Below are positions 3,136 to 5,379 of a stretch of DNA of 20,397 nt, in pieces. Origin of the DNA: a virus; the IMG/VR virus record IMGVR_UViG_3300009156_000344, positions 1 to 20,397 of that record; one strand, written 5' to 3'. Both the position numbers and the translations under genes were made by a program. Position 1 is the stretch's first letter; each line of letters begins with the position of its first letter. The notes below the pieces were generated by a model, which made no database searches, was not told where the DNA came from, and worked only from the letters and a program-made list of their open reading frames with translations.

Positions 3136-3997
3136 CCCGTGCAGCCTTTGCCTTGCCATCCTGGACCGCCTGGATCATGTGGCGAAGCTTGTTGAACTTG
3201 CCGACATCGTAATGCTTCAGCGCCTCGAACCCGTCGCTGTTGGCAACGATCCACTCATCGACGCGTTCGAATGTCCTGGCGGCTTTGATGTAGGCGAAGA
3301 GGTCGTTGGCCCATCGCTTCCATTCGTCTTCGCTGTTCCTCTCGTTGATCTCCAGCTCGTAGGGGTCGATCTCGACCGGCGCTGGCTTCTCGATCGGATC
3401 GCGATTTGCCCTGACGGGTGATCGTGGCGGCGCGGCATCGCCCGCGGCATCGCCATCATCATCATCCGTTGCGGTCAGTCCGAGGGCGGCGTTCAACGTA
3501 TAGCGTTGCAGGTATGTCACCGCGCTACCGATCGCCTGGATGGCATTCTTGTTGCCCGAGAGGTCCGCAGTGGCAGAGAGTGAGTTCTCCTCGCTGTAGC
3601 CGTCGCGGTGGCTGATGATGCAGGTCACGGTGACGACAGCGGGTGCGGTGGTCACGGTGCGGAAGCGATAGGTCAGGCCATGCTTGCTGAGTGGCTTGTC
3701 GATGGCTTCGGCGATCGCTGCCATGTCTGCGAATTTGTAGAAAGTGCGTTGTCCCTGGCGGTTGGTGTAATCGACCTTGCGTTCCTTCTTGATTGCCGGA
3801 AACTCCGCCTTGGCGTCGGCCATGGCAGCGGCATAGGCCTTGTGCGCCTTGTTCGCGACAGCACGTTCGTGCAGCCCCATGAGTTTCTCGAACACGTCGA
3901 TATTGGCACCGCTGACCACCGCGCGCTGTATCAGCTCCATCGGAGAGATATCCTGAGCAACAATCATTTCGTTCTGTCGTTCTGCGACTGCGTTCAT
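3122..3997 (-). CDS. erf: ERF family single-strand annealing recombinase
   Basis: This is a 291-residue protein with the ERF core at about 45-182. It has NKAHKAYAAAMADAKAEFPA, then FYKFADMAAIAEAI, GLTYRFRTVTT, VTVTCIISHRDG and the hallmark NKNAIQAIGSAVTYLQRYTL leading into ALGLTATDDDDG. Known ERF proteins (P22 Erf type) bind single-stranded DNA and anneal complementary strands, promoting phage genome circularisation and recombination in the cytoplasm. The region after 182 is a Pro/Ala linker and a helical C-terminal domain of about 80 residues that is more variable in the family. The ATG directly follows the stop of the Gp157-like gene (TGAATG), which fixes the start and places the two in one operon. 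ERF and Gp157 together form a common phage recombination pair. Assignment is secure at family level. Confidence 0.93.
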   Translation of the reverse strand: MNAVAERQNEMIVAQDISPMELIQRAVVSGANIDVFEKLMGLHERAVANKAHKAYAAAMADAKAEFPAIKKERKVDYTNRQGQRTFYKFADMAAIAEAIDKPLSKHGLTYRFRTVTTAPAVVTVTCIISHRDGYSEENSLSATADLSGNKNAIQAIGSAVTYLQRYTLNAALGLTATDDDDGDAAGDAAPPRSPVRANRDPIEKPAPVEIDPYELEINERNSEDEWKRWANDLFAYIKAARTFERVDEWIVANSDGFEALKHYDVGKFNKLRHMIQAVQDGKAKAARDDAG

Positions 3998-4492
3998 TCA
4001 GGTCACCATCAGGGTTGGTTCTGCGTTGGAGAGGGTTGCGCCGGGGATCGTGCGGCCCTCCTTGATGAGGCGTTTGATCTCGGTCAGGTTGGGTTCGCGT
4101 GTCACCCGGATGCAGTCTTCCGGCAGCTCGCTCTCGTTGGTGACGATCACCCAGGGCGTGCCGTTGCGGATCGAGAGGGTGGCCTGGACCAGCTCCAGCT
4201 TTTTCAATCCGGCGTCCTGCATGATGTTGAAGGCGAGGTCGCGCATGGCCTTGTGGCGGGCGAGGTAGCGATCGCGCCGGGTCTTGAGGTCTTTGATCAA
4301 GGCGGCCTGGGCGAGGGCCATCTTCTCGGCATCGGCCATGCGGTCGACGAGGATATCCATGAACTCGTGGGTGTCGGTTTCGCTGGCGATCGCGAGCTGG
4401 AACAGCTCCTCATCGTCGCAGACATCGGGATGGGTGAGGCGAAGGCGCTCGATCTGCGAGCGGAGGTCAGCCGGGTTCAGAGCGCGCGGCAT
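3998..4492 (-). CDS. Gp157 family protein (siphovirus Gp157-like)
   Basis: This 164-residue protein has a length typical for the family. It starts MPRALNPADLRSQIERL at 4492, with AAGGTGAG about six bases upstream. Longer in-frame extensions are open but cross the non-coding leader and lack a ribosome binding site. The N-terminal part is helical with DTHEFMDILVDRMADAEK. The C-terminal part carries the recognisable Gp157 pattern: LVQATLSIRNGTPWVIVTN, then LPEDCIRVTREPNLTEIKRL and the IPGA motif before the end. Gp157 proteins are named after a streptococcal phage protein linked to phage resistance, and they are usually found next to ERF or RecT recombinases, as here. The biochemical role is not established. 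It is the first gene of the leftward operon and so is controlled by the divergent region to its right. Confidence 0.88.
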   Translation of the reverse strand: MPRALNPADLRSQIERLRLTHPDVCDDEELFQLAIASETDTHEFMDILVDRMADAEKMALAQAALIKDLKTRRDRYLARHKAMRDLAFNIMQDAGLKKLELVQATLSIRNGTPWVIVTNESELPEDCIRVTREPNLTEIKRLIKEGRTIPGATLSNAEPTLMVT

Positions 4493-4581
4493 TGCGCTCA
4501 CCTTTGTGCTGTATGGTGAGATGCTTAAAGGTCGATCAATAAAGGGGCGCCGAATGGGCGCCGGGTGGTTAGTAAGGCAAT

Positions 4582-4673
4582 GAACCCTTGGAGGAAGATT
4601 GCCCCCCGCGTATTCCCTCTTTCGAGGTGTTGTATTTCGCGGGCCGCCCGACATAAGGGAGGCCCAAGGGTTC
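4582..4673. ncRNA. Candidate structured RNA: three nested inverted repeats
   Basis: A perfect 10-base inverted repeat, GAACCCTTGG (4582-4591) with CCAAGGGTTC (4664-4673), encloses a second pair, CCCGCG (4605-4610) with CGCGGG (4638-4643). That pair encloses a small hairpin CCTC-TTTC-GAGG (4616-4627). Pairs at three levels in register suggest a folded RNA rather than a simple binding site. If leftward transcription starts to the right, it lies in the 5' leader of the Gp157-ERF operon, 90 bases upstream of the start. If not, it could be a stand-alone RNA on either strand. No known riboswitch class is recognised. GC-rich DNA yields chance pairings, so the call is moderate to low. Confidence 0.35.
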
Positions 4674-4685
4674 TGAATGCCACGA

Positions 4686-4707
4686 CTGGCGCTTACTACG
4701 GCGCCAG
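4686..4707. repeat. Inverted repeat/hairpin
   Basis: CTGGCGC (4686-4692) and GCGCCAG (4701-4707) form a perfect 7-bp stem with an 8-base loop, only 12 bases from the end of the nested repeats at 4582-4673. There is no T run on either side, so it is not an obvious intrinsic terminator. It may belong to the same structured leader. Confidence 0.5.
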
Positions 4708-4814
4708 CCGCACGGTCACTATACGCACCGCTCAGCCAAAATGAGAAGGGTAGAAACGCAGTTCCTGCCGTCGGATGACGGTGCGGCAAATGTGGCGGGA
4801 ATCGTCACTTTTTC

Positions 4815-4829
4815 GCTTGACTGCGCCGC
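4815..4829 (+). repeat. 15-base direct repeat, copy 1 (copy 2 at 5096-5110)
   Basis: The sequence GCTTGACTGCGCCGC occurs here and again at 5096-5110, 281 bases apart and in the same orientation, both inside the divergent control region. Each copy contains TTGACT, a plausible -35 element, so they may be duplicated promoter or regulator sites. No good -10 element follows either copy at 16-18 bases. Confidence 0.5.
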
Positions 4830-4834
4830 ACAAT

Positions 4835-4851
4835 GCTCACGCGCGGTGAGC
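4835..4851. promoter_or_regulatory. Operator-like dyad GCTCAC-N5-GTGAGC
   Basis: A 17-base dyad with perfect 6-base arms lies midway between the two divergent operons. The size and geometry match binding sites of phage Cro/CI-type helix-turn-helix dimers, and two candidate HTH regulators (2872-3135 and 5155-5379) are encoded on either side. I see only one exact copy, whereas classical phage switches have several related sites, so the assignment to a particular regulator is inference. Confidence 0.4.
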
Positions 4852-5011
4852 AACCGCCTGATTTGTCAAGCGTGATTATCATTATAAAAAAGGGCAAGGC
4901 GGCGGACTGGGGAGAATCTGCAGGCGGGAAATGTCCGCGGCAGAAAGTGCTGTTAGATCAATGTGTTCTATGGTCAATACGTTGTCCTGATACCTCCGTC
5001 CTCCAGGGTTG

Positions 5012-5027
5012 TTTTCCACAGGTGGAA
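5012..5027 (+). promoter_or_regulatory. DnaA-box-like site overlapping a dyad
   Basis: TTTTCCACA (5012-5020) fits the relaxed DnaA box consensus TTWTNCACA, and TTCCAC-AG-GTGGAA (5014-5027) is a 14-base dyad overlapping it. It could be a DnaA-linked or a repressor site. A single 9-base match to a relaxed motif is weak evidence. Confidence 0.3.
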
Positions 5028-5095
5028 CCGTGCTGCGGCCAGATGCCGCAACGTCACTAGAGCCGCATTTGCAGCCCTTTCCTCACATCGGTTGA

Positions 5096-5110
5096 GCTTG
5101 ACTGCGCCGC
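5096..5110 (+). repeat. 15-base direct repeat, copy 2
   Basis: This is the second copy of GCTTGACTGCGCCGC, ending 44 bases before the start of the Cro-like gene. It continues into a short inverted repeat GCCGC-CT-GCGGC (5106-5117). Its position suits a control element for the rightward operon. Confidence 0.5.
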
Positions 5111-5130
5111 CTGCGGCGGGACGATGCAGC

Positions 5131-5159
5131 GCCATCACCACGGGAGAGCGTGTGATGGC
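5131..5159 (+). promoter_or_regulatory. Hairpin enclosing the start of the Cro-like gene
   Basis: GCCATCAC (5131-5138) and GTGATGGC (5152-5159) are perfect 8-base complements. In mRNA they would form a stem that contains the ATG at 5155, with the likely ribosome binding site (GGGAG, 5142-5146) in the 13-base loop. As DNA it is also a dyad at the gene's 5' end that the encoded regulator might bind. Either would give translational or transcriptional feedback; this is inference from position. Confidence 0.45.
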
Positions 5160-5379
5160 AAGGCTCAATACCACCGATGAAGTGATCGACCGGCTCGGCG
5201 GCACCGCAGCGGTCGCGGCGCTGACCGGGCGCGGCGTGACCTCCGTGTGCAACTGGCGCGCCGAGGATCGTTTCCCGGCCAACACGTATCTGGTGATGAC
5301 CACGGCGCTGCGGCGCAAGCGGCTGTCCGCACCGGCAGAGCTGTGGAGCCAAGTCGCGCCGCGCATGGCCGTGGCATGA
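5155..5379 (+). CDS. Cro/YdaS-like helix-turn-helix regulator (74 aa)
   Basis: This is the first gene of the rightward operon. The protein is a compact HTH: TTDEVIDRLGGTAAVAALTG leads into a recognition helix GRGVTSVCNWRAEDRFP, the LGG-x-x-A-V-A-x-L-x-G...V-x-N-W-R...FP arrangement typical of Cro/YdaS-type phage regulators. The C-terminal segment (ANTYLVMTTALRRKR, APAELW) completes a small all-helical domain. ATG 5155 is preceded by GGGAGAG; a GTG codon immediately before it is possible but less likely. The start lies in a perfect hairpin (5131-5159). Its location opposite the leftward operon suggests it represses one or both divergent promoters, as Cro does. No partner CI repressor is seen in the window. 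Confidence 0.8.
   Translation: MARLNTTDEVIDRLGGTAAVAALTGRGVTSVCNWRAEDRFPANTYLVMTTALRRKRLSAPAELWSQVAPRMAVA

Follow-up and report, generated by a model that had tools for sequence, protein, structure and literature searches.

A likely C4-type antisense RNA ahead of a Gp157/ERF operon in a viral genome and its alphaproteobacterial relatives

Introduction

C4 of phage P1 is a small antisense RNA that acts as a switch and pairs with messenger RNAs. In the available excerpts of PMC2864571 and PMC5320573, C4 appears so far mainly as an immunity RNA of gammaproteobacterial phages. The C4 precursor of phages P1 and P7 is reportedly cut by RNase P, and the Group 1 small RNAs of Acinetobacter baumannii, which are reported to be C4-type, are apparently processed from longer transcripts at the RNase P position, as is inferred in the excerpted text (PMC5320573). 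For Xylella De Donno, the excerpt of PMC12189769 lists C4, isrK and sRNA-Xcc1 as separate families, all inside a stretch of about 400 bases. The leader of P1 c4 matches IsrK (RF01394) below threshold (35.1 of 50 bits). In the GenBank record of P1, putative a1 and b1 sites are followed by c4 and then by a2 and b2 ahead of icd. Rfam 15 unites C4 (RF01695) and its a1/b1 sites (RF03163, c4-a1b1) in clan CL00128 and lists sRNA-Xcc1 (RF02221) in no clan, although the plan and the target logic are common to both. sRNA-Xcc1 is a small RNA of Xanthomonas, where work has dealt with how virulence regulators control it.

Here, we describe an element in a viral genome that appears to work like C4. By score it is not a member of RF01695 and falls short of the RF02221 threshold. 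The kind of RNA is already known; the new parts are an alphaproteobacterial group to which the element belongs and the link between sRNA-Xcc1 and C4.

Results

The window, the whole stretch of DNA that we analysed, comprises 20,397 nucleotides (positions 1 to 20,397 of IMG/VR record IMGVR_UViG_3300009156_000344). A preliminary description had proposed an undescribed structured RNA between its divergent operons, formed by three nested complementary pairs and a following hairpin. All arms named there are present, namely an outer 10-bp pair (GAACCCTTGG at 4582-4591 with CCAAGGGTTC at 4664-4673), a 6-bp pair (CCCGCG/CGCGGG, 4605-4610 with 4638-4643), a 4-bp pair (CCTC/GAGG, 4616-4619 with 4624-4627) and a 7-bp hairpin (CTGGCGC...GCGCCAG, 4686-4707). 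The Gp157 start at 4492 on the minus strand indeed lies 90 bases from 4582. The repeats exceed chance, as dinucleotide shuffling produced a perfect 10-bp inverted repeat 3 times in 500 for 4570-4720 and once in 500 for 4570-4680. Folding of 4570-4720 gave z = -3.03 for the plus and -4.15 for the minus strand, and on either strand none of 200 shuffles folded as well. Compensatory changes were found in the relatives (15 aligned, window left out). With these energies and changes, and with the promoter- and terminator-like sites that flank it, the proposal of a structured RNA beside the recombination operon, whether leader or stand-alone small RNA, is supported. The term undescribed does not hold for its kind, as the RNA appears to work in the manner of P1 C4 and is distantly related to Rfam sRNA-Xcc1. 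The three pairs also do not make up a single nested structure. The 6-bp and 4-bp pairs belong to the second helix of a C4-type RNA, and the 10-bp pair competes with the third hairpin. Its arms had been taken for a closing stem; they are a target and its antisense (b1 and b'), a relationship that had been missed, and the 3' arm of the closing helix (4560-4568) lies outside the segment originally delimited. The informative strand is the minus strand, the same as that of Gp157.

Read along the minus strand, the element begins with a promoter-like site (4718-4747) composed of a -35 hexamer TTCTCA (4747-4742), an 18-nt spacer and a -10 hexamer TATAGT (4723-4718). This is the sole match in 4440-5000, where 0.2 are expected in shuffles. 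A -10-like hexamer 55-95 nt ahead of the RNA was found at 14 of 40 loci; for a control stretch the figure was 6 of 40. The 7-bp hairpin (4686-4707) follows as a leader hairpin whose loop displays site a1 (TAGTAAG, 4698-4692), the complement of junction a'. Site b1 (GAACCCTTGG, 4664-4673), a 10-bp complement of loop b', ends 11 nt before the RNA. The C4-type antisense RNA, about 97 nt in its putative mature form (4556-4652), opens with the 5' strand of the closing helix P1 (GTCGGGCGG, 4644-4652), assigned by covariation and the match to our model R1, and with that of P2 (CCCGCG, 4638-4643), which covaries in relatives. A conserved core (AAATACAACACC) and the CCTC arm of a small apical stem occupy 4624-4637; the GAGG arm of this stem (4616-4619) and the 3' strand of P2 (CGCGGG, 4605-4610) complete the two short pairs of the preliminary description. 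The P3 hairpin (GGGCAAT...ATTGCC, 4576-4604) carries antisense loop b' (CUUCCUCCAAGGGUUC, 4582-4597) and is followed by antisense junction a' (UUACUAA, 4569-4575) and by the 3' strand of P1 (CCACCCGGC, then GCCC; 4560-4568). A terminator-like hairpin, then CCTTTATT, spans 4546-4562. It is one of three terminator-like matches on both strands of 4440-5000, with 0.6 expected in shuffles, and the only such hairpin on the minus strand of this interval. Downstream lie a Gp157-like gene (PF05565, 3998-4492, minus strand) and directly after it an ERF gene (PF04404, 3122-3997), both assigned by Pfam and PHROGs, and then small genes.

The only good Rfam match of the element was sRNA-Xcc1 (RF02221), which aligned over its full length to 4652-4552 of the minus strand with 43 bits (window-wide E 9.4e-5), below its threshold of 53 bits. 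RF01695 (threshold 45 bits) gave no match to the element at E up to 10. IsrK likewise gave none, either at E up to 10 in 4545-4660 or at E up to 5 in 4400-5200. Model R1 was built from alignment A2 of 15 relatives, from which the window was left out and which includes two phage relatives of the window, L191 and L193. It found the window element with 75.9 bits (E 9.8e-16, R1 E-values being only roughly calibrated), the next-best match in the window reaching 14.6 bits. Judged by R1, the element is a strong member of an alphaproteobacterial C4-type group. Under the structure of P1, P2, apical stem and P3, 93.3% of the cells in A2 pair, which drops to 38-56% in slid versions. Eight of the 22 pairs change on both sides, and the covariation score was reached in 0 of 500 shuffles. 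On further sources R1 found the RNA in 23 of 24, missing only P1, and it had no match in three named phages with related terminases. As RF01695 fails on the window and R1 misses P1 c4, the link to P1 rests on architecture rather than on sequence.

Two readings other than an antisense RNA can be weighed against these data. One takes the repeats for a DNA operator, or another set of protein-binding inverted repeats in a divergent control region, with no role as RNA. The element does adjoin the divergent early region, in which an operator-like inverted repeat occurs at 4835-4851, but the match to an RNA family is strand-specific, the covarying helices surround a conserved loop sequence, and the re-pairing tests described below likewise speak for RNA; we regard an operator as very improbable. 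The other assumes an integron cassette carrying sRNA-Xcc1 as in Xanthomonas, where the excerpted PMC12444791 describes this nearest Rfam family as integron-borne. Neither a GTTRRRY nor an RYYYAAC core site occurs on either strand of 4500-4720, however, and the setting is a phage operon, so that a cassette has next to no probability.

The core AATACAAnACC..GAAA..GGGAAT, which the window shares with sRNA-Xcc1 together with the same helix plan, is common in viral contigs, where a pattern scan retrieved at least 120 stretches. RF02221 gave 13 matches above threshold in 12 of 15 such loci tested. At many of them the RNA precedes a message start with complements of loop and junction, as seen by eye and then by a permutation test. 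This layout is the one known for P1 c4/ant, and the gene in that position is named antirepressor in two Escherichia phage records. The first alphaproteobacterial relatives came from a DNA search of plasmids, which returned three, from Phenylobacterium, Sphingomonas and Novosphingobium. A pattern derived from them retrieved 64 genome stretches, mostly of Alphaproteobacteria by record title, and 11 viral stretches. Ten non-proteobacterial loci among the 64 were set aside by title; R1 matched none of these ten, nor locus L158. Also left out were L195 (cut off), L127 (at the locus edge, failing the pattern) and L128 (a duplicate of L066), although L127 and L128 do match R1. The thresholds of RF02221 and RF01695 were reached by none of the 16 alphaproteobacterial loci tested alongside the window's own virus, the 17th source. 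In samples, R1 matched 15 of 196 genomes from the order to which a Sphingomonas belongs and, from the class of a Caulobacter, 31 of 289, both counts being lower bounds owing to strict filters.

A protein search with Gp157 returned only L125, the same virus, which is identical over 3500 bases and was not counted as a relative. The annotated-phage DNA search found no match to the L193 element. With the window segment it returned two records of one Aeromonas phage, which we rejected as chance (E 6e-3, in a coding gene).

In most of the group, the antisense segments match the RNA's own leader. In the window, loop b' matches b1 over 10 nt and junction a' matches a1 over 7 nt, a1 lying in the loop of the 7-bp hairpin. 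Both sites in the order a1 to b1 are present at 24 of 40 loci, the window among them, and the same leader layout recurs across loci with different letters. For the duplex-energy test, 59 loci were reduced to 48 clusters; in 20 of these, including the window, the own upstream region beat all 47 others, compared with one expected. The test of the longest Watson-Crick run used 40 representatives of 58 loci at a stricter cut; L134, whose 3' end was wrongly parsed, was omitted from this permutation test and kept in the duplex-energy test. Upstream runs averaged 9.30 nt for own and 5.51 nt for crossed combinations (0 of 20,000 permutations) and were at least 8 nt long in 32 of the 40. Among 18 independent loci found later by R1 the means were 8.11 and 5.15 nt (0 of 20,000), with at least 8 nt in 12 of 18. 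Loop and leader thus change together between loci, which amounts to covariation of a pairing outside the C4 fold.

The alphaproteobacterial set also has a real downstream signal, weaker than the upstream one (6.88 vs 5.63 nt, 0 of 20,000 permutations; 2 of 20,000 in the hold-out). Downstream matches of at least 7 nt within 22 nt of a start codon occur at 13 of 40 loci, the window not among them, vs 9.6% of crossed combinations. In sRNA-Xcc1-type phage loci, unlike in the group of the window, a complement of at least 8 nt is more often found downstream (10 of 30) than upstream (5 of 30). Gammaproteobacterial-type loci (104 loci with rougher boundaries, 30 representatives) also give some upstream signal (mean 6.20 vs 5.08 nt, 0 of 20,000). 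The contrast between upstream and downstream is therefore a matter of degree.

The candidate downstream target in the window (4473-4502, minus strand) is a weak one. It combines an a2 site (GGTGAG, 4502-4497) at the ribosome-binding site with a 7-nt b2 match (TGAACCC, 4479-4473) in Gp157 codons 5-7, and pairing as good as this is reached by 6% of all 80-nt segments. Nine of 47 foreign downstream regions pair at least as well as the window's own. No strong target turned up in the rest of the window, although some sites pair about as well as b1. The minus-strand segment 5015-4998, which lies upstream of the promoter-like sites and has no known transcript, has a slightly more favourable pairing energy with loop b' than b1 has (-19.8 vs -18.3 kcal/mol), because UCCUCC in the loop pairs with a Shine-Dalgarno-like sequence.

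Discussion

Taken together, the data argue for a C4-type antisense RNA on the minus strand of the window, a reading to which we assign a probability of roughly 0.78. Like the window, P1 has the order promoter, a1, b1 and antisense RNA, and its a1 lies in the loop of a leader hairpin according to the Rfam c4-a1b1 model. When the folds are compared, both RNAs have a closing helix around the second and third hairpins and carry the antisense in the third-hairpin loop and the junction. The window differs from P1 C4 by its AATACAA core, by Gp157 and ERF instead of icd/ant downstream and by its weak a2/b2 site. The Group 1 RNAs of A. baumannii, from other hosts, can be set beside the window by description only, as RNAs reported to be C4-type (PMC5320573, excerpt).

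We infer the following course of events. Transcription from about 4720 would yield a leader in which a hairpin loop displays a1 and b1 is single-stranded, followed by the RNA of about 97 nt and the terminator-like hairpin. The body would fold into P1, P2 and P3, with the junction presenting a' and the P3 loop presenting b'. In the precursor b1 would pair with b' and keep the antisense closed. Cleavage at the base of P1 by host RNase P, a step reported for P1 c4, would probably detach the leader. Once free, the RNA may limit itself by binding a1 and b1 of new transcripts. Following the P1 precedent, it may also pair with the start of the downstream message, most likely that of Gp157/ERF, and expression of the recombination genes would be lowered. 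By this analogy the RNA probably damps the Gp157/ERF operon.

The predicted energies of the precursor, -82.2 kcal/mol with b1:b' paired vs -72.8 with the C4 fold enforced, suggest a locked precursor that is freed by removal of the leader, the b1:b' fold and the P1/P3 fold being mutually exclusive. This exclusion is also what a cis-acting switch would require, in which the alternative folds of a single Gp157/ERF mRNA leader decide on read-through of the terminator and no small RNA acts in trans. Furthermore, the 3' strand of P1 overlaps the terminator-like stem at 4562-4560, so that P1 formation and the terminator compete. Yet in many relatives the downstream site is a separate one and the genes that follow differ, the form fits the released RNA known for P1 c4, and the U-tract (CCTTTATT) is poor. 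We therefore consider such a switch quite improbable.

Among the annotated genes tested, no antirepressor operon follows the RNA; Gp157 and ERF are found instead. Together with the weak site at Gp157, the missing antirepressor would fit a decoy or remnant, a C4-type RNA that has lost its original antirepressor-like target and retains only a self-complementary leader. However, a1 still has its 7-nt and b1 its 10-nt match, and L191 and L193 have kept this arrangement, which makes a remnant unlikely. Both viral contigs have genes in common with the window, among them the terminase and VapE in L193; in L191 there are two. Genes for a YqaJ exonuclease and for RecT flank the RNA in L191. In L193 it lies downstream of YqaJ and ahead of a short reading frame that has a 10-nt b2 match at its start. 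From these positions, the antisense RNA stays in the recombination or early operon of the lineage while the neighbouring genes change.

A broader reading, which we put forward tentatively and with more doubt than confidence, is that the RNA represents a C4-type branch that is widespread in Alphaproteobacteria, occurs on chromosomes, plasmids and phages alike and has its own 5' leader as its best conserved partner. Its precursor would be locked by its own copy of the target and released by processing, its level would set its own output, and in the phage lineage of the window it would have left antirepressor control for the recombination operon. Since C4-related RNAs recur across Alphaproteobacteria below the Rfam thresholds, the standard RNA catalogue mostly misses this group, and within the open-licence literature we found no paper that joins C4 antisense RNA with Alphaproteobacteria. 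The a1 and b1 sites, only putative in the P1 record, form the most strongly maintained pairing in the group, so that their role becomes testable. The common plan further suggests that sRNA-Xcc1 belongs to the C4-type antisense RNAs and that its loop and junction reveal its targets.

Several minor observations were made along the way. The repeat at 4835-4851 (GCTCAC...GTGAGC, GCTCACCGCGCGTGAGC) lies just downstream of a TTGACA at 4869 on the minus strand and resembles the repressor operator of an early promoter. Upstream of its start, the Gp157 frame runs on without a stop through the entire RNA as far as a TTG at 4789 (3998-4789, minus strand), which we take as chance. At 5780-5580 and 3339-3899, L191 contains DNA repeat units that carry CATGAACTCC and lie between the RNA and RecT, together with a reading frame of similar repeats (NAVAN..NS..LRPxRPA); by eye, the repeats resemble that phage's own site b1. 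At two loci (L140 and L196) C4-type RNAs precede genes that by eye resemble DNA methyltransferases. In chromosomal and phage members alike (L129, L135, L146, L150, L192 and others), the RNA often precedes small genes whose starts look by eye like signal peptides or lipoproteins.
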